DNA of 64,000 bases. It comes from an uncultured Clostridia bacterium (lineage in GTDB: Bacteria > Bacillota > Clostridia > Oscillospirales > Acutalibacteraceae). Position numbers and translations under genes: made by a program. Location of the stretch: positions 1 to 64,000 of the forward strand of contig CANQGT010000009.1 in assembly GCA_947623505.1 (NCBI GenBank), read 5' to 3'. Each line of letters opens with the position of its first letter. Positions within the stretch are counted from its first letter, which is position 1. Positions 3,672-58,901 of the stretch are shown one piece after another. Below the pieces are notes generated by a model. It did no database searches. It had not been told where the DNA came from and saw nothing but the letters and a program-made list of their open reading frames with translations.

Positions 3672-3800
3672 GCATTCTTAACGTAACGTACAGACTTGTC
3701 TGCGGCGCACAGAATAATCCACTTATTGCTGCTCGGTTCCCCGCCTGACAAGGTTCGTAGCATCCCGTCGCACAGGGCCCATACGCTACGTTAAGAATGC
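3672..3800 (-). ncRNA. ffs: Signal recognition particle RNA, short bacterial type
   Basis: SRP RNA forms the targeting particle with Ffh. Read on the minus strand the two ends form a long closing helix (14 nt at 3787-3800 pairing with 3672-3685). The apical domain IV signature, GTCAGG...GGGGAACCGAGCAGC, occupies 3728-3749 and contains the internal loops that bind Ffh. A G/C stretch followed by six T at the 3' end (3663-3671) should terminate the transcript. The location directly upstream of dnaX is common for this RNA. At about 130 nt it seems to lack the Alu domain of the long Bacillus-type SRP RNA. The 5' end could extend to about 3809, where the promoter predicts initiation. Confidence 0.92.
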
Positions 3801-4377: not shown

Positions 4378-6135
4378 TCACCAGCGTCCGCCTCCGCCGC
4401 CGCCGAAGCCGCCGCCGGAAAATCCTCCGCCCGAGAAACCTCCCCCTCCGGAAACTCCGCCTCCGGAAAATGAACCGCCGGAATCCTGATGCGGTTGTGA
4501 AGTCATGGACACTGCCGCCGTTCTGAGCATATTGTTTAAAAATACCGCGCAAGTTATGTTGCCGAAATCGGCGCCCGTTGACGAATACCACCCCGGAGGC
4601 TGCGTGGCGATGCCCTCGAAATTCTCAGTCCAGGCATCCGACACGCCGAGAACATAGGCGTAGGGAAGAATATCGTAATAATATTCGGGATTTTCATAAA
4701 CGAGCTTTTCAAGACGCTCTTTTTCGGCTTTTTCAAGAAATATCTTAAAGCCGTTTATTTTTTGCAATATCTCGTGCCCCTTATCGGTTCTCTGCCTGAT
4801 GAAAAACGCGAATATAAAGGCGCAAAGGCAAATCAGCGAGCCGATAAGCAAAAAGACATATTTTTCCGTGCCGCCGATGATGCGGCTCGAGATGAAAAAC
4901 GAAACCAAAAGAGCGGCGACTGCCGACGCCCAGCCGAAAAAGCGCATATTGAGGGATTTTTCACCGAAGACCTTGACCTTATTATCCAAGGCGTTTATAT
5001 CCGTCAAAATTCTTTCGACGTATATATAAAATCTGTTTTCCAAATCAGTCTTATAGGTTTTATACTTGGCGCCGTCGCTGAAAAGGCCGTCAAAAAATAT
5101 CCGCTTATATTTGTTGTCGCCATCGTAATCCTTAACGCGCTTTATTATAAAATCGCTCATATTTCCGGATTCCGTTTTGTAATTATCCTGAGTTATCTCA
5201 ACAAAGCCCTCGTTAGCAAGCTCAATAAGAAGCGGGATAACGTCCTCCTGCGAGGCGGCTCCCTTATACCAATATGCCACCTCAAGGCTGCTCATACCCT
5301 CCGGCGGATAAAATTCCACCACATCGACAACTTTTTTATCTCTGCCGAATTTTACCCAAAAAATTATAACAAGGGCAAGAGCCAAAGCGGGAATAAGCAC
5401 GAGGAGCGAGAGCTTGGCATAGTACGCGGCATAATTGAAATAGAAATAATTATCCGGCAGCTCAAGCCTTACGGTGAGGCCCTGATAAGGCGAAAGTTCC
5501 TTTGTAAGCCGGCCGCTTATCCGATTGCCGTTTACCGAATATTCTATATCCTCAGTGCCGGCCTCCCCGTATCTTCCGGCGGAAAAGCCGAGCTTCTTTT
5601 CGTCAAATTCCTTAGGCATATTCACGGTAAACGCGACGTTATCGATATAAGTGCTCCACTCCGTCCCTATTATGTTGTAATAAAGCTCGTCAAAGCCCTC
5701 TCCCGTATCCTTTCCGATAACGTAATTATATGAAATCGTGTAATCCCTGCTGCCGGAAACGGTTTTGTTTTCGTCGCCTATACGGATAACACATTTCCCG
5801 TCACGGGTAGAAACGTCGGCAACCTCGCTCACCGCAATGTCGCGCACGTGCGCGTTCATTCTTGCCGACGTGCCGTCTTCCCTTTCAATATATCCTGAAA
5901 ACGGTATACTTCTGAAAATGCCGTGGCTCGGCACGTTGAAATATACGGAAATTTTCTCTTTTACGGCAAGCGTATTGTCTTCACCCACATCTATGCTTAC
6001 GTTGTAATCGGTTATATAATAAGAATAGTCGCCGTGTTTAACGGAAGTTTCTTCACTGCCGAAGGCGATTTCGCAAAACGAGAGAACGATGATAAGAACA
6101 GCCGAAAACAAAGCGGCTTTTTTAAGCGATTTCAT
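4378..6135 (-). CDS. DUF2207 family membrane protein with Gly-rich tail
   Basis: This 585-aa protein has a signal peptide or anchor (about 5-27), a large extracytoplasmic beta-rich domain (about 35-235), a membrane segment (LLVLIPALALALVIIFWV, about 247-264), a cytoplasmic part, two more membrane segments around 405-450, and a C-terminal tail of Ser/Gly repeats (SGGG, FSGG) from about 550. This is the DUF2207/YciQ architecture; its function is unknown. The ATG overlaps the lemA stop as TGATG, so the two are translationally coupled. LemA plus DUF2207 is a recurrent pair in bacteria, suggesting a joint envelope function. The frame starting at a TTG one codon earlier is less likely. Confidence 0.9.
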   Translation of the reverse strand: MKSLKKAALFSAVLIIVLSFCEIAFGSEETSVKHGDYSYYITDYNVSIDVGEDNTLAVKEKISVYFNVPSHGIFRSIPFSGYIEREDGTSARMNAHVRDIAVSEVADVSTRDGKCVIRIGDENKTVSGSRDYTISYNYVIGKDTGEGFDELYYNIIGTEWSTYIDNVAFTVNMPKEFDEKKLGFSAGRYGEAGTEDIEYSVNGNRISGRLTKELSPYQGLTVRLELPDNYFYFNYAAYYAKLSLLVLIPALALALVIIFWVKFGRDKKVVDVVEFYPPEGMSSLEVAYWYKGAASQEDVIPLLIELANEGFVEITQDNYKTESGNMSDFIIKRVKDYDGDNKYKRIFFDGLFSDGAKYKTYKTDLENRFYIYVERILTDINALDNKVKVFGEKSLNMRFFGWASAVAALLVSFFISSRIIGGTEKYVFLLIGSLICLCAFIFAFFIRQRTDKGHEILQKINGFKIFLEKAEKERLEKLVYENPEYYYDILPYAYVLGVSDAWTENFEGIATQPPGWYSSTGADFGNITCAVFLNNMLRTAAVSMTSQPHQDSGGSFSGGGVSGGGGFSGGGFSGGGFGGGGGGRW

Positions 6136-6713
6136 CAAAATTCCACCTTAACGGCCTGCCTCTCGGCGGCATCGTCCACAACAAACATTTGCTTTCTTGC
6201 GAATTTAAACATTGAGGCGATTATACTTGAGGGGAACATTTCCACCTTGTTGTTGTATGTCTTAACAACGGCGTTGTAAAACTTCCTTGCGTTTGCTATA
6301 TCCTCCTCGGTTTTCTGAAGTTGACCGTTTAGATTCAGAAAATTCTCGTTCGCCTTTAAATCGGGATACCTCTCCGCCAAAGCGTTTATCGCGGCAAGAC
6401 CTCTCGAAAGCTCGGCGTTCGCCTCAAGCTTTTCCTCATCGGAAAGAGCCTGATAACCGCCGTTTCTCGCGGCTATGACTTTTTCGAGCGTTTCCGCCTC
6501 GTGCTTCGCATAGCCCTTAACGGACGCAACGATATTCGGAATAAGATCCCAACGCTTTTTCAGGTAAACGTCCATTGTTGAAAAGGCTTCCTCCACCGCG
6601 TTTCTGTTTTTTACAAGCGAATTGTAGGTTGAACCGATATAGACAGCCAAAATAATCACAACCGCGACAATTACAATTACGATAACAGCCGTTACGGCTC
6701 CGTTTGATAACAT
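6135..6713 (-). CDS. lemA: LemA family protein
   Basis: LemA proteins are membrane-anchored helical-bundle proteins found beside DUF2207 or M48-type genes; the role is not settled. The 192-aa product has one N-terminal membrane segment (VTAVIVIVIVAVVIILAVY, about 7-25), then the family core: YNSLVKNRNAVEEAFSTMDV, LKKRWDLIPNIVASVKGYAKHE, a long helix with RGLAAINALAERYPDLKANENF, and ARKFYNAVVKTYNNKVEMFPSSI. GAGG precedes the ATG and a good promoter lies at 6769-6797. It is the first gene of a two- or three-gene unit with the DUF2207 protein. Confidence 0.95.
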   Translation of the reverse strand: MLSNGAVTAVIVIVIVAVVIILAVYIGSTYNSLVKNRNAVEEAFSTMDVYLKKRWDLIPNIVASVKGYAKHEAETLEKVIAARNGGYQALSDEEKLEANAELSRGLAAINALAERYPDLKANENFLNLNGQLQKTEEDIANARKFYNAVVKTYNNKVEMFPSSIIASMFKFARKQMFVVDDAAERQAVKVEF

Positions 6714-6768
6714 AATGCTCTTCCTCTCATTTCTCTTAATTTTATTTTACTTAATGTTTTACTTTATT

Positions 6769-6797
6769 ATTCTACCACTTGAAAATTAAATAAGCAA
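6769..6797 (-). promoter_or_regulatory. SigA-type promoter of lemA
   Basis: On the minus strand TTGCTT (6792-6797) and TAGAAT (6769-6774) are 17 bp apart, about 55 bp upstream of the lemA start. It sits to the left of the repeat element, so lemA does not need the repeat for transcription. Confidence 0.55.
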
Positions 6798-6805
6798 TAA
6801 TTGTA

Positions 6806-6839
6806 AAGCGGCTTCGGAAAATAATTTCCAAAGCCGCCG
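6806..6839. repeat. 34-bp palindromic direct repeat, left copy
   Basis: A 34-bp sequence identical to 7102-7135, in the same orientation. Each copy is itself an imperfect palindrome (GCGGCTT ... AAGCCGC, with inner GGAAA/TTTCC), so it forms a hairpin in RNA from either strand. The two copies are 296 bp apart and bracket repeat element copy A. Confidence 0.85.
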
Positions 6840-6840
6840 C

Positions 6841-7101
6841 AGCGTGTAGAAAAAAGTCAGGGAAATAGATTTCTACACGCCGGCAGACTTCGAGAAACGG
6901 AACCGAATTCGCCTTTCGGCAATTCGTCGGCGTACATAGGTACGGTAGAGTTGCCGAAAGCCGCTTAAATTCGATATTCAAGCGGCTTTCTTATTGCAGT
7001 AGTTATTAAAAATTATACAGACTGAATTTTTGTAGGTGATACCGATAACGCAAGCATATTTATTTTATCGGCGCGGTTCAGACCGCTTTATCGACAGTCT
7101 G
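6841..7101. repeat. Dispersed intergenic repeat, copy A (fullest copy)
   Basis: This fills most of the 429-bp gap between lemA and the SDR gene. It shares long identical stretches with 47023-47213 and, from 6957 onward, with 58531-58679. Parts, left to right: an inverted repeat GTGTAGAAA/TTTCTACAC (6844-6878), a segment absent from copy B, a hairpin AAGCCGCTT/AAGCGGCTT (about 6959-6987), and a conserved 84-bp core. The core can fold as a three-way junction: outer stem CAGACTG/CAGTCTG (7018-7024 with 7095-7101), stem CCGATAA/TTATCGG (7042-7048 with 7065-7071), and stem GCGGT/ACCGC closed by TCAG (7073-7086). Open frames through it look accidental. Whether it works as RNA or as DNA is not known. 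Confidence 0.85.
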
Positions 7102-7135
7102 AAGCGGCTTCGGAAAATAATTTCCAAAGCCGCCG
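7102..7135. terminator. Hairpin after the uxu genes; 34-bp repeat, right copy
   Basis: This is the second copy of the 34-bp palindrome found at 6806-6839. It lies 8 bp after the stop of the SDR gene, where a transcription terminator is expected. On the minus strand it is followed by TTCAGACT rather than a strong T-run, so termination here is plausible but not strong. Confidence 0.55.
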
Positions 7136-7142
7136 AAATATT

Positions 7143-7991
7143 TCATACTCCCGAATAAGCGCTGAAGCCGCCGTCCACGGGAATGCTCACGCCCGTTATA
7201 AATCCGCTGTAATCCTCATCGCACAGGAAGAGCAGCGCTCCGTCGAGTTCCTTGGCGTCGCCAAACCGCTTCATCGGCGTGGCGGCAAGTATCTTGCCCG
7301 TTCTTTCGGTGGGCGAGCCGTCCTTTTTCCAAAGCAAATCGGCATTCTGCTTTGTTGAAAAGAACCCGGGAGCAATGGCGTTTACACGAATACCCATAGG
7401 CGCGAAATGCACCGCCATCCACTCCGTAAAATTCTTTACCGCAGCCTTTGCCGCGGAATAAGCCGGAATTTTGGTTAGCGGACGGTAGGCGTTCATCGAC
7501 GTTATCATAACTATACAGGCGTTTTCCTTTTCGACCATATCTCGGGCAAACACCTGAGTAGGTATAAGCGTGCCGAGAAAATTGAGATTGAAAACAAAGC
7601 TTATCCCCTGAGGATCAAGGTCAAAAAAGGTTTTTATATTTTCGTCCTTTCGCACAAGGTCTATCTTCTCAAGCGTTTCCTTCGTTGTCGTGCCGCGCGG
7701 ATTGTTTCCTCCCGCGCCGTTCAGAAGTATATCGCAGGTGCCGAGCTTATCGGCTATTATATCGCGGGCTTTTTGCATGGATTCCGGTTCCAGCACGTTG
7801 CAGGCTACCGCCAACGCTTCGCCGCCGTCCGCTTTTATTTCATCGGCGCATTTTTTCGCGGCTTCTTCGTTGAGGTCGAGCACCGCTACCTTGCAGCCCT
7901 GCTTCGCCAAGGTCTTCGCGAAAGCGCCGCAGAGCACTCCGCCTCCGCCCGTTACAACGGCAACTCTGCCTTTAAGATTTTCGTGAATCAT
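7143..7991 (-). CDS. uxuB: SDR-family D-mannonate oxidoreductase (fructuronate reductase)
   Basis: This 282-aa protein is a short-chain dehydrogenase/reductase. A nucleotide-binding loop (TGGGGVLCGAFA, about 14-25), an NGAGG motif (about 90-94) and the catalytic Tyr-x-x-x-Lys (IPAYSAAKA) after a Ser strand (MITSMNAY) are visible. SDRs of this type beside uxuA act as the mannonate oxidoreductase of Gram-positive bacteria (B. subtilis YjmF type), interconverting fructuronate and mannonate with NAD(H) in glucuronate breakdown. It starts 2 bp after the uxuA stop behind GGAG. The role is assigned by family and neighbour; a related sugar-acid dehydrogenase is possible. Confidence 0.85.
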   Translation of the reverse strand: MIHENLKGRVAVVTGGGGVLCGAFAKTLAKQGCKVAVLDLNEEAAKKCADEIKADGGEALAVACNVLEPESMQKARDIIADKLGTCDILLNGAGGNNPRGTTTKETLEKIDLVRKDENIKTFFDLDPQGISFVFNLNFLGTLIPTQVFARDMVEKENACIVMITSMNAYRPLTKIPAYSAAKAAVKNFTEWMAVHFAPMGIRVNAIAPGFFSTKQNADLLWKKDGSPTERTGKILAATPMKRFGDAKELDGALLFLCDEDYSGFITGVSIPVDGGFSAYSGV

Positions 7992-7993
7992 CT

Positions 7994-9070
7994 TTATTTC
8001 TCCTTTCTGCTTTTCTCAACGGCTTCCCATAAGCCGTTAAGATAGCACACGCCGAGCGCCCTGTCGTAAAGTCCGTAGCCGGGGCGCGCCACCTCGCCCC
8101 ATATCATTCTGCCGTGGTCGGGGCGGACGTATCCGTCAAAGCCCGTTTCCTGAAGCGCCTTTACTATCTCGTACATATCAAGCGAGCCCGCGTTGCTTTC
8201 GTGGGAGGTCTCGTTAAACCAACGGTCGTTTATGGAGACGTTGCGCAGATGCGCGAAATAAATGCGCTTTGAAATAACGGGATCTTTTATAATATCCACA
8301 ATATCGTTTTCGGGGCTTGCGCCGAGCGAACCCGTGCAGAGAGTTATGCCGTTGCATTCACTGTCCGCCATTGTCAGAAGTTTTTTCAGCGCGCCTTTGC
8401 CCGTGATTATTCTCGGCAGGCCGAATATGCCCCAGGGCGGATCGTCCGGGTGGATCGCCATTTTGATGCCGCATTCCTCGCAGGTGGGCAGTATCGAATC
8501 GAGAAAATATTTGAGATTATCCCACAAATCCCTCTCGGTTATGCCCCTGTATTTTTCAAAAAGCTCTTTGATTTCGCCCATTCTTTCGGGCTCCCAGCCG
8601 GGCATCGCGTAGCCGTTTGAATTGTCGTCTATCTCACGAAACATATCCTCGGGCGATTTGCCTTCAACCTGCTTTCCGTCGTAACAAAGACAGGTGGAGC
8701 CGTCGCCGAGAGGCATATAGAGATCGGTTCTCGTCCAGTCAAAAACGGGCATAAAATTATAGCAAACGCATTTTACGCCGACTTTCGCAAGATTTCTTAA
8801 AGATGTTTTATAGTTTTCTATAAATTTGTCCCTTGACGGCAGGCCGAGCTTTATATCCTCGTGAACGTTTACGCTTTCTATACATTCCATAGTAAGTCCG
8901 GCGCCGGTTATCTCGTCGTACATGGCGCGCACTCTCTCTTCGCTCCACGCCTCGCCCGCGGGCAGATCGTGAAGAGCCGGAACGACTCCGACAACGTTCG
9001 GTATCTGCTTTATCTGCTCAAGGGTAACGGTGTCCAGCTTCGTGCCGAACCACCTGAAAGTCATCTGCAT
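7994..9070 (-). CDS. uxuA: Mannonate dehydratase
   Basis: UxuA removes water from D-mannonate to give 2-keto-3-deoxygluconate, the third step of glucuronate catabolism. The 358-aa product has the expected MTFRWFG start, the VVGVVPALHDLPAGEAW segment, metal-binding AIHPDDPPWGIFGLPRI (about 209-225), TLCTGSLGASPEND, YFAHLRNV and GYVRPDHGRMIWGE near the C terminus. AGGGAGG stands 7 nt before the ATG and a strong promoter is at 9105-9133. Together with the following SDR gene it forms a small uronate operon; uxaC, kdgK and kdgA are not in this window. Confidence 0.96.
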   Translation of the reverse strand: MQMTFRWFGTKLDTVTLEQIKQIPNVVGVVPALHDLPAGEAWSEERVRAMYDEITGAGLTMECIESVNVHEDIKLGLPSRDKFIENYKTSLRNLAKVGVKCVCYNFMPVFDWTRTDLYMPLGDGSTCLCYDGKQVEGKSPEDMFREIDDNSNGYAMPGWEPERMGEIKELFEKYRGITERDLWDNLKYFLDSILPTCEECGIKMAIHPDDPPWGIFGLPRIITGKGALKKLLTMADSECNGITLCTGSLGASPENDIVDIIKDPVISKRIYFAHLRNVSINDRWFNETSHESNAGSLDMYEIVKALQETGFDGYVRPDHGRMIWGEVARPGYGLYDRALGVCYLNGLWEAVEKSRKEK

Positions 9071-46507: not shown

Positions 46508-46870
46508 TTATTCCTCCCATAAATCATTTAGGATAGCCAGAACGCTTTCCTTAGGCACACCTGAATTTTTAGCGTCCGAAAGCGCCGCCTTCGCTTTCGC
46601 AACGGCGGATTTCTGCACCTGCTCCAAGCCGGTCGCTCCGCCTTTTACAAAAACGCCTTTGCCGGCCTTTGTGTAAATAACCCCTCCCGCTTCAAGACTT
46701 TTGTAGGCTTTCGCAACGGTGTTGGGATTTATTCCGAGCCGGCAGGCAAGCGATCTGACCGACGGAAGCATACTGTCCTTTTCATAAACGCCGAGATTTA
46801 TATATCTGATTATATTTTTCTCAAGCTGAATATAAATAGGATCTCGGCCATTTACGTCAATTGTAAACAT
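46508..46870 (-). CDS. GntR-family (YtrA-type) regulator
   Basis: The 120-aa protein has an N-terminal winged helix (YIQLEKNIIRYINLGVYEKDS, SVRSLACRLGINPNTVAKAY, and a wing at GKGVFV) and only a short C-terminal helical part. This size is the YtrA subfamily of GntR regulators, which repress their own ABC transporter operons until an envelope stress or antibiotic is met. The ABC ATPase and permease genes follow directly. A palindrome just after the promoter is a likely operator. Confidence 0.92.
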   Translation of the reverse strand: MFTIDVNGRDPIYIQLEKNIIRYINLGVYEKDSMLPSVRSLACRLGINPNTVAKAYKSLEAGGVIYTKAGKGVFVKGGATGLEQVQKSAVAKAKAALSDAKNSGVPKESVLAILNDLWEE

Positions 46871-47022: not shown

Positions 47023-47213
47023 TGAAAAAGTCAGGGGAACAGATTTCTACACGCAGGCAGACTTCGAGAAACGGAACTGAATTCGATATTCAAGCGGCTT
47101 TCTCATTGCAGTAGCTATTAAAAATTATACAGACTGAATTTTTGTAGATGATACCGATAACGCAAGCATATTTATTCTCTCGGCGCGGTTCGGACCGCTT
47201 TATCGACAGTCTG
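47023..47213. repeat. Dispersed intergenic repeat, copy B (internally deleted)
   Basis: It lies in the 390-bp gap between gntR and the glycoside hydrolase gene, which otherwise holds only the gntR promoter and a terminator. It matches copy A (6841-7101) almost base for base from GAAAAAGTCAGG to CAGTCTG, but lacks 62 bp. The missing part lies between two AATTCG words of copy A (6906-6911 and 6968-6973), so the left arm of the AAGCCGCTT hairpin is gone. The three-way-junction core (47126-47213) is intact; the closing tetraloop is TCGG instead of TCAG, keeping the GCGGT/ACCGC stem. Confidence 0.88.
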
Positions 47214-47243
47214 AAAAAGGCTCGGCAAAAGCCGAACCCTTTT
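47214..47243 (-). terminator. Terminator after the glycoside hydrolase gene
   Basis: A stem (AAAAGG.TCGGC with GCCGA.CCTTTT, one mismatch) and AAAA loop lies 18 bp after the gene stop; CCTTTTT ends it on the minus strand. It directly abuts the end of repeat copy B. Confidence 0.75.
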
Positions 47244-47260
47244 GAGATACTTTTACGGTT

Positions 47261-49852
47261 TTAAGCCTGCGCTTCGCTTATTACCACCTCGGCAATATTG
47301 GGCGCGTGCGTTTCCATACCGTTGAATTTGTTTGAGCCGTCGTTTGAAAACGTCAAAACGTTTTCGCCTTTTTTAAGCTCAATATTGAAAGTGACGGTCG
47401 TGAAATTGTCCCAACTGTATGTGTTTCTGCAATACTCGTTGCGTGTTTTTCCGTTTACTCCGAGGGTTATGAAATCCTCAACGAGATCGATATTATAGCT
47501 GTGAATGCCGTTTTCGTGATTATTCGCGTAAAGCACAGTCATTTTATATATTCCGCTTTCCGGAACCGAAACGTCAAACCGCGCGGAGCCGCCCTCGGAC
47601 GAGATCCCGCCTATATAATCCGTTTTTGAAGCGTGGCTTGCGTCTATATACGCCTTGCCGCTCAGCTTTGCGTCGTTCGCGTCGAGAATTATCTGAAACG
47701 CCTGCTTTACGGACGGCTTTATCGTCATTTCCGACACCTCCGGAGCCGAAACGTCAATGTAATTCAGCCCTCTGCGAAGAAATACCGTGGCCTTTCCGTC
47801 GGCCTCGGTTACTGCCGGAGCGCCGTCAAGCGAAAGGCTTACGTTTTTATCGGTTTTTAAATCGTAATATCCGTCCGCGGGAGATACGGCAAGGAAAGAG
47901 CTCAGAGAATCATCGGATCTTTCACTGTCCGGCATAACATATATATTGGCATTGGGCTGAGTTTTTCTCACAAGCAGAGAATCGAGCACATAGGTGCCGT
48001 CGTTATGCGTAAGGCGAAGCTTTTTTCTGCCGTCGTTCAGTTCGAGAGTCACGGTTTTTGACGAGGTGAGCTCGCTTCTTACCGTGTTTTCAAAGGCTAT
48101 TACGCTCTCCTGCCCGTCGATGCTCATATTAACATAAGTATGCGTTCTGTCATTCGGATCCTGACGGCCGTTTTCATCTACGGGCCCGTCGTTTGAATTG
48201 CCGTAAACAAAAGTAAAATCATAGCTTCCGTCGTCGGGTATGTCCACAACTATCTCCACGCCGTCGCCCTCATTCTCCATTCCGCCTACCATTCCCGCAA
48301 TTTCGCCGGTGGTGGCATAAGCGCTGTCGTACGTATAGGCGTTTCCGAGAAGCGTGCCCTGCTCAAATTCGTAACGGGTGTAAAGATTTTCGCCTTCACT
48401 GTAAACGTCGCCGTCGTTCGCTTCTCTTATCTCAACAAAATAAGCGGTGTCGGAATTCATATCGTTCAGATTTACGCTTATGCTTGAGCCGCATTTCGCA
48501 GTATAAGTTTCGAGCACCTCGGGCGCGAAGACCTTGCCCTCAATCCCCTGGAATGAAACGGCGCTTACCGTTACGCACACTTTTTTGCCGTAAAGAGCGG
48601 TGTTTTTCAGATTCTTCACCTTGACGGCGCCGCTGTAATCGGCTCCGGAGGCAAGTATTTTTATACCGTCCTTATCATCGCTTAAAGAACCTATCGCGAG
48701 AAACTGCTTATAGCGCAGCTCCCTTTTTTCTTTAATCGCCTTGCCCAAATCGGAATGGAAAAGATCGTGCATCGTGATATTCATCGTCTGCCCGTCCATT
48801 TCCGAATACCAGCGATATACCCACCAAGCCGAGTTGGGCGTGTTGTAATCCGCCGCGGTGCTGCAAAGATTATTTGCGAGCAGCCAGTACGCCTGGTCGG
48901 CATATACCTTTGAGGTCTCTATCTGGGTAATGTACTTCGCCATAGTATTGGGATTTCCGTTATCCTCCATTTTTCCGTACTCGGTTATAATTATCGGGGT
49001 ATCGGCGGAAATTCCGTATTTTTCCTCGGTCGCTCTGAATTCGTTTACGTGAGCCTGCCAATGATATATGGAATATTCGCCCAGCTCGTGATAAATCATA
49101 ACGTCCGGCACGCAATTGTTTTCGGAAGTATATTTAAGAAATCCATCGCTCTTTTCAAGATTGTAATCCATATATCCCGGCCCGCCGATAAGCGCGTTGG
49201 GATCGAGCGAACGCACATAGTCGTAAGTCATTTTCCAGGCTTCATAGAAGTTCTGCCTGCCCTCGTCGCCGAAATCGTTCCAGCCGTTGCCGTCGTCGCC
49301 CGTCACCCATGGGCCGAACCAAACGCCGTTGTCGCATTCGTTATAAAGGCAGTAAACTATCCTGTCGTGATAATAGGAATCCTTTATCTCCTCAACAGTT
49401 TTCTCAATCATCGGGAAAAAGACGGAGGTTATATATTCTTTCCAGTCATATTTACCCGACTTTTTCATTTCCGTTATATTCTGCTCATCATAATACCAAG
49501 TGGAATACATATCCTGAAGATAAACGATAAGATACTTGCAGTCTTTTCCCGCCATGGCCTCTTTTGCCACGTCGCCCATCTCGCCTATCGGGTGCTGAAG
49601 ACCGCCCTGTGTTTTCGTCGCGAGGGAGGTGAGATCAATACTTTCAACCATATTGTAAGACGGCACACCGTCCTCCGCTATGCCGTAAAGAAAGCCCGTG
49701 GCTCCGCCGGTAACGTTGCCGGTAAGATTTTCGGCGTCAAAAATCACCGTCGGTTTATAGAAGATGAAAAAAACGCCAAACGCAAAAACCGCTGCCAAAA
49801 TCAGGGCAATTACGCAGATTATTATTCTTTTTGCGATATTTTTAGCCTTCAT
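47261..49852 (-). CDS. Membrane-anchored clan GH-A glycoside hydrolase with carbohydrate-binding-like modules
   Basis: The 863-aa protein has an N-terminal membrane anchor (IIICVIALILAAVFAFGVFFI, about 10-30) and a TIM-barrel catalytic domain (about 50-400). The probable acid/base is Glu172 in LYNECDNGVWFGPW and the nucleophile Glu291 in IIITEYGK, the Asn-Glu and second Glu pair of clan GH-A; the layout recalls GH39. Residues about 400-480 form a beta domain, and two CBM6/35-like modules follow (about 490-630 and 735-863), both with YEFEQG- or SHASKTDYIGG-type starts and NDG-type loops. The outer-surface location suggests glycan cleavage outside the cell. Substrate unknown. Its start overlaps the lipid kinase stop by 11 nt. 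Confidence 0.8.
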   Translation of the reverse strand: MKAKNIAKRIIICVIALILAAVFAFGVFFIFYKPTVIFDAENLTGNVTGGATGFLYGIAEDGVPSYNMVESIDLTSLATKTQGGLQHPIGEMGDVAKEAMAGKDCKYLIVYLQDMYSTWYYDEQNITEMKKSGKYDWKEYITSVFFPMIEKTVEEIKDSYYHDRIVYCLYNECDNGVWFGPWVTGDDGNGWNDFGDEGRQNFYEAWKMTYDYVRSLDPNALIGGPGYMDYNLEKSDGFLKYTSENNCVPDVMIYHELGEYSIYHWQAHVNEFRATEEKYGISADTPIIITEYGKMEDNGNPNTMAKYITQIETSKVYADQAYWLLANNLCSTAADYNTPNSAWWVYRWYSEMDGQTMNITMHDLFHSDLGKAIKEKRELRYKQFLAIGSLSDDKDGIKILASGADYSGAVKVKNLKNTALYGKKVCVTVSAVSFQGIEGKVFAPEVLETYTAKCGSSISVNLNDMNSDTAYFVEIREANDGDVYSEGENLYTRYEFEQGTLLGNAYTYDSAYATTGEIAGMVGGMENEGDGVEIVVDIPDDGSYDFTFVYGNSNDGPVDENGRQDPNDRTHTYVNMSIDGQESVIAFENTVRSELTSSKTVTLELNDGRKKLRLTHNDGTYVLDSLLVRKTQPNANIYVMPDSERSDDSLSSFLAVSPADGYYDLKTDKNVSLSLDGAPAVTEADGKATVFLRRGLNYIDVSAPEVSEMTIKPSVKQAFQIILDANDAKLSGKAYIDASHASKTDYIGGISSEGGSARFDVSVPESGIYKMTVLYANNHENGIHSYNIDLVEDFITLGVNGKTRNEYCRNTYSWDNFTTVTFNIELKKGENVLTFSNDGSNKFNGMETHAPNIAEVVISEAQA

Positions 49853-56510: not shown

Positions 56511-57560
56511 TTATATACCGAAAAACTCCTTTGTTTTATCAATTTCCACCGTATGGATAAAGCTCGTTCCGATTTCTTTAAGCAAAACAAGCTTTATGGA
56601 CGAGCCCGTGCGCTTTTTATCGCTGCCCATAGCCGTGACAACGTCTTTAAGCGGATACGGGCATTTTGTTTTCATACCGTATTTTTCAAGCAATTTTTTT
56701 ATTCTTTCGGCTGTTCCGCGTTGTGTAAGCCCCGCATTTTCGCCTGCCTCGCTTATGAGAAGCATACCTATACCGACCGCCTCGCCGTGAGATATTTCGG
56801 TAAAGCCTCCCAATTTTTCTATGCCGTGGCCTGCCGTGTGCCCGAAATTCAAAAGAGCTCTCTCGCCGCTTTCCTTTTCGTCGCGCTCAACAATACCGCG
56901 CTTTATATCAACGCATTCAAAAATAAGATCTTCAATAAAATTCCTTGGATCTTCCTCGCTGAGCCTGTTGAAAAGCTCCGGCGATTTTATACAGCCGTAT
57001 TTTATAACCTCGCCCATTCCGTCTCTGAAATAATGTTCATTGAGAGTATCGAGGGCGCAGGGATCGATAAGCACGAGAGCGGGCTGATGAAACGCGCCGC
57101 AAAGATTTTTGCCCTGCGGCAGATTAACGCCCGTTTTTCCGCCCACCGAAGAATCCACCTGCGAAAGCAGGGTGGTGGGTATCTGCACAAATTTTATGCC
57201 CCGCAAATATATCGCCGCCGCGAAGCCCGCCATATCGCCGCACACCCCTCCTCCGAGGGCTATTACCAAATCTCCTCTTGTAAGGGCGCGGTCGGCAAGA
57301 TACTCAACTATTTTTATAACCGTGCCTGTCGTTTTTGAAATCTCACCGGCCGGAAAAACATATGTAAAAACGTTAAAGCCCTCGCCCTCGACGCTTTTTT
57401 TTACCGTTTCAAGATAGAGGGGGGCAACGTTCGTATCGCTTATAATTGCCGCCTTTTTGGCGTTCGTAACTTTTCTTATATATTTTCCGCAGTCGCCCAT
57501 TATGCCCTTTTCAATAAGAATATCATAGGGACTGCCCACATTCACGGTCAGTTTTTTCAT
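56511..57560 (-). CDS. aroB: 3-dehydroquinate synthase
   Basis: AroB closes DAHP to 3-dehydroquinate with NAD+ and a metal ion. The 349-aa product has KAAIISDTNVAPLYL, VIALGGGVCGDMAGFAAAIYLRGIKFVQIPTTLLSQVDSSVGGKTGVN (in parts about 92-140), GEVIKYG, and the metal-ligand motif LLNFGHTAGHGIE followed by SHGEAVGIGM. Its ATG overlaps the tyrA stop (TGATG). DAHP synthase, aroD, aroE and aroK are not in this window, so the rest of the shikimate pathway is elsewhere. Confidence 0.96.
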   Translation of the reverse strand: MKKLTVNVGSPYDILIEKGIMGDCGKYIRKVTNAKKAAIISDTNVAPLYLETVKKSVEGEGFNVFTYVFPAGEISKTTGTVIKIVEYLADRALTRGDLVIALGGGVCGDMAGFAAAIYLRGIKFVQIPTTLLSQVDSSVGGKTGVNLPQGKNLCGAFHQPALVLIDPCALDTLNEHYFRDGMGEVIKYGCIKSPELFNRLSEEDPRNFIEDLIFECVDIKRGIVERDEKESGERALLNFGHTAGHGIEKLGGFTEISHGEAVGIGMLLISEAGENAGLTQRGTAERIKKLLEKYGMKTKCPYPLKDVVTAMGSDKKRTGSSIKLVLLKEIGTSFIHTVEIDKTKEFFGI

Positions 57561-58384
57561 CAGCCTATTTCCTCTTTTATCCTGTTTGCCTCGCGCATCA
57601 TTTTAAGCAGCGTTTCAGTATCCTGCCCGTCGATAGCCTCTCTGAATTTTTCAAGATTGCCGACAAGATCGTCTATTTCTCTTATCAGCGGCTCCCTGTT
57701 CGCGATAAACAGTTCACTCCACATTTCGCCGTTTATCCTCGCCACGCGGGAAACGTCCCTGTAAGAGCCCGCCGAAAAGCCCGTGTGCTGAGGCGCGAGG
57801 GGGCTTAAAACATATGAGCAGGCAAGCACGTGGGCTATCTGCGACGTGAACGCTATCATCTCGTCGTGATGCTCCGGCGTTGTCACAACCGTGCGGGCAA
57901 AGCCCATCTCCTTAGCGAGTTCGATAAGCGTGTCTGTTTTTGATTTCGGCGCGTTGGTGGGTGTGCAGATAAAAGAGGCGTTGTCAAAGAGCGTGGCAAG
58001 GCTCGCGTCATAGCCCGAAACCTCGCGGCCCGCCATCGGGTGCGCGCCTATATATGTAAAATTAAAATTCTCTTTTTCAAGAGCTCTGCATATTTTGGTT
58101 TTTATTCCGCAGCTGTCCGTAACGATGCTGCCTTTTTTGAACTGTTCCCTGTGCTCCAGCACGAACGGCACTATCGCGTCGGTATAGAAATTGATTATCG
58201 TTATATCCGCTTGGGGTATCAGTTCCTCAAGGCTTCCCGTTTCATCGATCGCGCCGTCCGCAAGCGCCTTGCGCGTCACGCTCTCCGTTCTGTTCCAGCC
58301 GAGAACAAAGTGATCCGTATTTTTCTTCAAAGTCTTGGCTATACTCGCGCCGATAAGGCCGAGTCCCGCCACAAGAATTTTCAT
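57560..58384 (-). CDS. tyrA: Prephenate dehydrogenase
   Basis: TyrA oxidises prephenate to 4-hydroxyphenylpyruvate for tyrosine. The 274-aa product begins with a Rossmann loop (ILVAGLGLIGASIAKTLKK, about 3-21) and continues with DSCGIKTKICRALE, the active-site IGAHPMAGREVSGYDAS and PEHHDEMIAFTSQIAHVLACSYV, then GFSAGSYRDVSRVARING. No ACT domain is fused, so it may be uncontrolled by Tyr or regulated in another way. I start at the ATG at 58384; a longer open frame upstream includes the promoter. It opens the operon tyrA-aroB-aroA-aroC-pheA. Confidence 0.95.
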   Translation of the reverse strand: MKILVAGLGLIGASIAKTLKKNTDHFVLGWNRTESVTRKALADGAIDETGSLEELIPQADITIINFYTDAIVPFVLEHREQFKKGSIVTDSCGIKTKICRALEKENFNFTYIGAHPMAGREVSGYDASLATLFDNASFICTPTNAPKSKTDTLIELAKEMGFARTVVTTPEHHDEMIAFTSQIAHVLACSYVLSPLAPQHTGFSAGSYRDVSRVARINGEMWSELFIANREPLIREIDDLVGNLEKFREAIDGQDTETLLKMMREANRIKEEIG

Positions 58385-58417
58385 ACATACTTCCACCAAT
58401 ACCATAGTTTCCACTAT

Positions 58418-58446
58418 ATGATAATACATATTCGGCGGGAAATCAA
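58418..58446 (-). promoter_or_regulatory. SigA-type promoter of the aromatic amino-acid operon
   Basis: On the minus strand TTGATT (58441-58446) and TATCAT (58418-58423) are 17 bp apart, giving a leader of about 27 nt. That is too short for a T-box or attenuator, and none was found further upstream. Confidence 0.65.
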
Positions 58447-58530
58447 GAAAATATAAAATTAAATAATTATAAACTAAAGGCTCGAATTTTAATATGACTT
58501 TGCGGCGGAAAACGCCGAGCGTCAAAGCGC

Positions 58531-58679
58531 CGAAAGCCGCTTGGATTCGACGTTCAAGCGGCTTTCTCAATGCGGTTGTTATAAAAAATTATACCGGCTG
58601 CATTTTTATCTGCGATACAGATAACACAAATATATTTATTTTATCGGCGCGGTTCAGACCGCTTTATCGACAGTCTGAG
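58531..58679. repeat. Dispersed intergenic repeat, copy C (most divergent)
   Basis: It lies in the 517-bp gap between the divergent tyrA and the Cro/C1 regulator; the rest of the gap holds the tyrA promoter and A/T-rich DNA. It matches copies A and B from the AAGCCGCTT/AAGCGGCTT hairpin to CAGTCTG, with scattered changes, and lacks the left part. The outer stem now pairs GGCTG with CAGTC, including a G-U pair where the other copies have A-U. The GCGGT-TCAG-ACCGC stem is unchanged. The second stem is weakened by a mismatch. It is followed at once by a GC-rich hairpin at 58677-58705. Confidence 0.82.
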
Positions 58680-58705
58680 GCCGCCCGCAAAAAGCGGACG
58701 GCCTC
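58677..58705. terminator. GC-rich hairpin at the end of repeat copy C
   Basis: Arms GAGGCCG.CCGC and GCGG.CGGCCTC (one mismatch) around AAAAA. No protein gene ends here, so if it terminates transcription the RNA ended would be the repeat itself, read on the plus strand. It lacks a T-run. Confidence 0.4.
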
Positions 58706-58901
58706 GTTAAGCAAGGCTTTGTGGGGGAGCCTGAGCTTTAAACACAATTATTTTTATTGCGCAGCATAATTATAACTTAATTGAGTATTATTGTCAACAC
58801 TTAATAAAAGTAATTTTTTCTACGGTAGTTTTTTCAATACGGATATTAACTATATTACCGTTCAATATAATAGTAAAATAAATTCAAAAGGGGTGTATTT
58901 T

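Follow-up and report, generated by a model that had tools for sequence, protein, structure and literature searches.

A short intergenic element with IS1182-like ends, flanking hairpin repeats and a covarying fold in an uncultured Clostridia bacterium and its relatives

Repeated blocks and the extent of the element

Three related blocks lie in the window, by which we mean the whole stretch of 64,000 nucleotides analysed here. With 6968-7117 taken as a 150-nt reference, the blocks at 47080-47229 and 58544-58693 are 92% and 83% identical to it, and the first two copies (A and B) additionally have 6851-6911 and 47025-47085 in common (93% identity). Copy A is located between open reading frames 6135-6713 and 7143-7991, and the absence of any frame of at least 80 aa in 6714-7142 indicates a short element without a transposase gene. 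Copy B falls between frames 46508-46870 and 47261-49852. Copy C is overlapped by two listed frames, one with a TTG start (57560-58570) and one of 91 aa (58494-58769), both of which we judge probably not to be genes. The sequence-only reading had described a three-copy repeat found always between genes. The three related blocks are present, but the block delimited there is only the right part of a longer element, and intergenic placement follows from the reading frames for copies A and B, and for copy C only if the two overlapping frames are discounted.

Further copies were looked for in the whole genome (1.82 Mb in 24 contigs, 96.67% completeness). With 6840-7140 as the query we found 13 near-full places including copy A, as well as partial ones. 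In alignments that include the flanks, full copies have CAGCGTGTAG at their left end and CGACAGTCTG at their right, and most are 275-278 bp long. The full element therefore measures about 262-280 bp (262 bp in copy A, 275-280 bp being usual), and the window's three blocks are damaged copies of it (Table 1). Copy A is missing 16 nt between two GCCGAAAG repeats and has one extra A, and copy B is missing the stretch between two ATTCG repeats. Matches to a covariance model of the structured module described below were obtained for copy A (6882-6990, 65.1 bits), copy C (58468-58566, 40.3 bits) and, weakly, copy B (23.4 bits). Copy numbers given here are tabulated counts, and the loci inspected are samples of all matches.

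At gathering scores, an Rfam scan of the window returned only a tmRNA (116-466, - strand, 170.7 bits) and a bacterial small SRP RNA (3685-3784, - strand, 59.7 bits), both away from the repeats. Relaxed scans of copy A and of another locus (L037) gave matches that were all below gathering scores and that we take to be chance, in agreement with the earlier failure to assign the repeat to a known RNA family.

Table 1. Coordinates of the element copies and their features in the window
Feature	Position	Strand	Remarks
Duplicated terminator-like hairpin of copy A, left copy	6806..6839	.	34/34 identical to 7102-7135
Copy A (MITE)	6840..7101	+	262 bp; 16-nt internal deletion relative to full copies
P1, left-end hairpin GCGTGTAG/CTACACGC	6842..6880	+	outer arm is the left transposon end
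P0 left arm, CAGACT	6884..6889	+	pairs with right end; RNAalifold consensus columns 58-62 with 326-330
P2/P3 hairpin	6909..6960	+	apex GTAC (6932-6935) / GTAC (6940-6943); covariation in full copies
P4, terminator-like palindrome AAAGCCGCTT...AAGCGGCTTT	6957..6989	.	foldable on either strand; covariation
P5 right arm, TCGGCGC	7068..7074	+	long-range helix; partner GCGCCGA lost in copy A
Right transposon end TTTATCGACAGTCTG	7087..7101	+	near-invariant over 40 elements; resembles IS ends
Duplicated hairpin, right copy	7102..7135	.	adjoins 3' end of gene 7143-7991 (-)
Copy B	47025..47213	+	internal deletion, left end rearranged; hairpin next at 47214-47243
Copy C	58529..58677	+	without left end; hairpin starts at 58678

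Flanking hairpins, an empty site and IS1182-family relatives

Twelve of the 13 near-full copies in the window's own genome are flanked by direct repeats of a terminator-like hairpin, 20-34 bp in length. In the exception (L010), the left and right hairpins differ from each other; the loop of its left-end hairpin P1 is inverted (L010:1472-1510). Among a first set of 45 elements, the direct repeat reached a score of at least 15 in 38, of which 35 also fold (at least six pairs), compared to 2 of 1980 mispaired flanks. A larger set comprised 90 elements from 37 genomes, collected by a finder that required the left hairpin, the apex and the right end and so excluded damaged copies such as B and C. 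Here, 67 elements reached a repeat score of at least 14 and 64 of these fold too, compared to 1 of 7714 mispaired flanks, leaving 26 of the 90 without a hairpin repeat. The 64 hairpin repeats are 18-36 bp long (median 26), exactly abut the left end of the element in 55 cases and the right end in 57, and adjoin a T or A tract in 51 (T on the right only in 11, A on the left only in 17, both in 23 and neither in 13). The suggestion in the sequence-only reading that the repeat was perhaps mobile like a MITE is well supported by the many copies, their exact ends and these hairpin direct repeats. At two loci the flanking hairpins are not identical, the differences being paired changes that preserve the stem (C-G versus G-C in L053, A-T versus G-C in L058), as if both had been maintained as hairpins.

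The region around copy A was also compared among relatives. Seventy of the 80 genomes of the genus matched a 6150-8000 query (E ≤ 1e-20), nearly always over gene 7143-7991. One of them (G034, L316) has both neighbours in position; the two matches are separated by 183 bp, compared to 511 bp in the window, and the window's succession of hairpin, element and hairpin is replaced there by one hairpin of related sequence. Given the synteny on both sides, we read this as an empty site with one related hairpin. Eleven relatives were inspected by eye, and a terminator-like hairpin follows the gene in nine, with none obvious in two (L318, L323); only G034 was used as an empty site, as most of the eleven had no clear synteny on the other side. 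In another genome (G308, L321), the relative of gene 7143-7991 has a right end of similar kind next to its terminator hairpin, probably the trace of a separate insertion event at this gene.

The ends of the element point to its likely mobiliser. An autonomous insertion sequence in the same genus (G028, L119:1021-2619) is 1599 bp long, has the ends CAGACTGTCGAAAAA and TTTTTCTACAGTCTG, contains one open frame and is bordered on both sides by a 26-bp hairpin. The frame encodes a transposase of the IS1182 family (NF033551, 411.1 bits, with a cut-off of 270; Pfam DDE_Tnp_1_6 and DUF772). The transposase frame (L119:1107-2708) has no stop inside the element and continues past its end, through the duplicated hairpin and beyond. 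In the protein (P0001), a lysine-rich stretch at about residues 198-228 precedes the DDE_Tnp_1 match. The MITE ends, CAGACTGTCGATAAAG on the right and CAGCGTGTAGAAAAAG on the left, are similar but not identical to the IS ends CAGACTGTCGAAAAA and CAGACTGTAGAAAAA.

Of 196 relatives of the transposase in named genomes we kept 80, mostly from genomes titled as Oscillospiraceae or other Clostridia, together with Chakrabartyella piscis, Oscillibacter, Desulfosporosinus and several more. Eleven of the 80 were at loci too near a contig end to score. Under the common rule, 43 of the 69 scorable loci carry hairpin direct repeats (19-64 bp) and 26 do not, while 3 of 600 mispaired IS flanks reached the repeat score. 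In Chakrabartyella the repeats occur at eight of nine IS1182 loci.

Within the window's genus, the transposase is present in G007, G023 and G028. Five of 41 genomes of the genus matched the IS1182 family at E ≤ 1e-15, and in three the match passes the cut-off. Searches of the window's own genome (G000) for an IS1182 transposase found none at E ≤ 1e-20 for the protein or 1e-15 for the family model. G007 has eight places with a match of about 96-98 bp to an IS end, and at least six of these (C1, C6, C11, C16, C25, C26) extend to the contig end, which suggested a longer repeated element. A hairpin is also located just outside the left end of an IS1182 relic in G005 (L127, C21), and just outside the left end of an IS in G023 (L121, C22), where the contig stops at the right end. 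The P2/P3 module, in turn, was absent from autonomous IS loci (0 of 84 sources at E ≤ 1e-3; three weak matches, the best with E 0.0056). Therefore, the MITE is not simply a shortened IS, and IS1182 transposition does not need the module.

The fold of the interior and the strand on which it is read

The sequence-only reading had proposed a conserved three-way junction with substitutions that respect its stems. The pairings exist in copy A, and they were assessed over 17 copies with 15 distinct rows (15 copies from the window's own genome and two from G019). Over the distinct copies, none of the 19 pairs had changed on both sides and the covariation score (0.037) equalled that of shuffled alignments (0.036). 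Depending on the copy, the outer stem keeps one to seven of its seven pairs and the second stem four to seven of seven; the third is nearly invariant. CAGTCTG is constant across copies because it is the transposon end, and its proposed partner drifts. As drawn, the junction is unsupported, with no compensatory change over the 15 distinct copies, and it is absent from the RNAalifold consensus. The expectation of structure nevertheless holds in another form: a covarying fold exists (P2/P3 and P4), although it lies mostly to the left of the block first described, where all three window copies are damaged.

RNAalifold predicted 41 pairs over 40 elements, 21 of them with compensatory change (of 45 elements, the five exceeding 320 nt were left out: L039, L052, L081, L085, L088). 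A global fold closing on the right end is possible, as the CAGTCTG arm is predicted to pair with CAGAC after the left hairpin in this consensus. For P2/P3 and P4 within the genus, 35 of the 40 sequences were kept (L001, which has a deletion, was excluded, as were L010 and three rows identical in sequence to others). Double changes were found at 26 of 37 pairs, with 218 double-change cells compared to 78 shuffled and at most 43 slid, and a covariation score of 0.478 compared to 0.204 shuffled and at most 0.130 slid. The number of further standard pair types in this set (48) was not raised over shuffled alignments (49.5; reached by 415 of 500 shuffles). Between families, P2/P3 was assessed with 21 of 24 other-family sequences (without L245, L279 and L288) and five genus rows. 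Here, 18 of 24 pairs show double changes, in 147 cells compared to 46 shuffled and at most 66 slid, with a score of 0.619 compared to 0.195 shuffled and at most 0.177 slid. All of these counts were made on the alignments that had served to derive the folds, and the sequences are related to one another. The stem turns over beneath an apex, GUAC-NNNG-GUAC, whose paired letters are kept in the genus (35/35 at three pairs, 34/35 at the fourth) and between families (GUAC...GUAC, 26/26). In copy A, part of the 3' arm of P2/P3 is deleted.

A further helix, P5, connects the stretch that follows P2 with a site some 25-28 nt from the right end; in typical copies its two arms are separated by more than 100 nt. 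In narrow windows, which were chosen post hoc after a wide-window test, at least five Watson-Crick pairs occur in 72 of 90 elements compared to 19.7% of 3578 cross-family pairings, at least six in 48 (7.2%) and at least seven in 37 (2.5%). In the wide windows, the longest Watson-Crick run was at least seven in 39 of 90 elements (12.2% cross-family, 6.7% shuffled), and mean duplex energy was -17.2 kcal/mol for self pairings versus -13.4 kcal/mol for cross-family ones, with a mean per-element z against shuffles of only about -1.2 in the largest group.

The module is widespread in the genus, where the covariance model matched 67 of 80 genomes with up to 40 matches in one. Under stricter filters it matched 15 of 245 genomes of the order in 10 of 126 genera, the window's own genome included. 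Of 19 loci from other genera inspected by eye, 13 show the succession of hairpin, left hairpin, P2/P3, usually P4, right end and hairpin, and six do not. Two loci of one family (f20; L228, L229) have the P2/P3 hairpin by model match, with no IS1182 ends seen. A locus in another family (L045; G046, family f11) has a 27-nt identical stretch with the GUAC...GGUAC apex and different ends.

If the + strand is the one that folds, G.T mismatches would be tolerated in its stems and A.C mismatches would not. In P2/P3, G.T exceeded A.C by 54 to 4 cells in the genus and 66 to 11 in the cross-family set, and by 11 to 3 and 14 to 6 when each column was counted only once. Counts per cell are not independent of one another. 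The counts were even in P4 (15 to 13 cells), as expected of a two-way terminator or DNA, and P5 leaned in the opposite direction (3 G.T to 10 A.C). These alignments lend moderate support to P2/P3 being kept as a single strand read from left to right, for which RNA would be the simplest explanation.

Proposed mobilisation, alternative readings and known systems

The many copies with exact ends, the hairpin direct repeats, the similar IS ends with matching repeats, the empty site and the covariation together make it very probable, as far as sequence can tell, that the element is a non-autonomous MITE of about 260-290 bp that is moved in trans by an IS1182-family DDE transposase, inserts at terminator hairpins while duplicating them whole, and keeps P2/P3 as a fold. 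In this mechanism, the transposase would join both transposon 3' ends (CAGnCTGT-type) to a palindrome at its two 5' feet, after which repair would leave a full hairpin copy on each side. The usual target would be a hairpin resembling an intrinsic terminator, so insertions would fall after genes. One of the two hairpin copies would be separated from its T-tract by the insertion, and termination would probably pass to P4, the palindrome within the element. The P2/P3 hairpin would be kept as a fold, most likely of RNA (or another single strand), read from left to right.

We consider it somewhat unlikely that the interior is instead a transposition signal and not a host RNA, with P0 and P5 bringing the ends together and the machinery reading P2/P3 as folded single-stranded DNA or RNA. 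Two helices do tie the ends, P0 including the right transposon end itself. Moreover, P5 is far more frequent within elements than across families (at least six pairs in 48 of 90 versus 7.2% of 3578), and the fold accompanies the same ends in other families, at 13 of 19 loci with ends and both hairpins by eye. The module is absent, however, from autonomous IS loci (0/84 at E ≤ 1e-3), so that IS1182 transposition can proceed without it, and the P5 contrast loses force given the narrowing of its windows post hoc and the weak result of the wide-window energy test (mean z about -1.2, largest group). More improbable is that the compensatory changes stem from correction of imperfect palindromes by template switching at DNA replication, with no selection on the fold. 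This process would not predict the excess of G.T over A.C in P2/P3 (54 to 4 and 66 to 11 cells), the persistence of the apex GUAC...GUAC letters while the stem turns over, or P5 arms lying more than 100 nt apart; it would fit P4, which has no strand preference (15 to 13 cells), and the flanking hairpin copies that differ by paired changes (L053, L058).

The identity of the mobiliser could also be questioned. We regard it as very unlikely that a different, unseen transposase moves the element and that its likeness to IS1182 ends is convergent, even though the search of the window's own genome for an IS1182 transposase was negative at the thresholds given above and the MITE interior was not found in IS loci. 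IS1182 elements in the genus (G028) and elsewhere share both the similar ends and the unusual hairpin duplication, and the eight places in G007 match an IS end, at least six reaching the contig end. Multicopy IS are often lost from MAGs. Strong covariation and intergenic placement would also suit a non-transposing structured non-coding RNA gene or cis-regulator whose copies arose by ordinary duplication. That account is scarcely credible, being contradicted by hairpin direct repeats tight against both ends at unrelated sites and by the empty site.

Hairpin targeting by the IS1182 family is already in print. According to two accounts (PMC4923244, PMC5678879), IS1272/TnSha1 elements of staphylococci, which belong to this family, target hairpins, often transcription terminators, without a common target sequence, and hairpin sequence is lost upon insertion with no target duplication. 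Siguier et al. are cited there for IS1182-family insertion sequences that target palindromes, with the remark that detailed data were not provided (PMC4923244, PMC5678879). The element described here resembles both in the transposase family of its likely mobiliser and in its hairpin or palindromic targets. Unlike IS1272/TnSha1, it is short and non-coding with a conserved fold, and the whole hairpin is duplicated and not removed (64 of 90 elements), an outcome that PMC5678879 proposes as pathway b of its model. The element is also similar to the pneumococcal SPRITE, BOX and RUP MITEs in being short, non-coding, intergenic and structured with IS-like ends, and SPRITE is terminator-like; compared by description and not by sequence, the accessible part of that account makes no mention of IS1182 or of terminator duplication by insertion (PMC10969869).

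Within the portions of the open-licence literature covered, we found no account of MITEs of the IS1182 type located at terminators, none of whole-hairpin duplication as an observed outcome and none of a conserved structured interior of such a MITE. Group IIC introns insert next to terminator hairpins and are not known to make such a hairpin duplication. No group II intron was matched in the window by Rfam at gathering score, and the ends of the element are DDE-transposon ends.

Beyond the mobile element itself, we tentatively suggest that MITEs in several families of one order carry a functional structured RNA, in which a P2 stem turns over under a near-fixed GUAC-NNNG-GUAC apex and is followed by a built-in terminator, and that the element, through terminator duplication, appends this module to the 3' ends of many genes. 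If true, the element would be a mobile 3'-UTR system or would serve its own spread as a cis signal. The 64 MITE and 43 IS insertions present whole-hairpin duplication, which PMC5678879 draws as an alternative to hairpin loss in IS1272, and supply numerous natural sites at which to ask how the shape of DNA, and not its sequence, is read by a DDE transposase. The retention of a compensated fold across bacterial families by a non-autonomous element needs to be explained by some function of RNA or single-stranded DNA.
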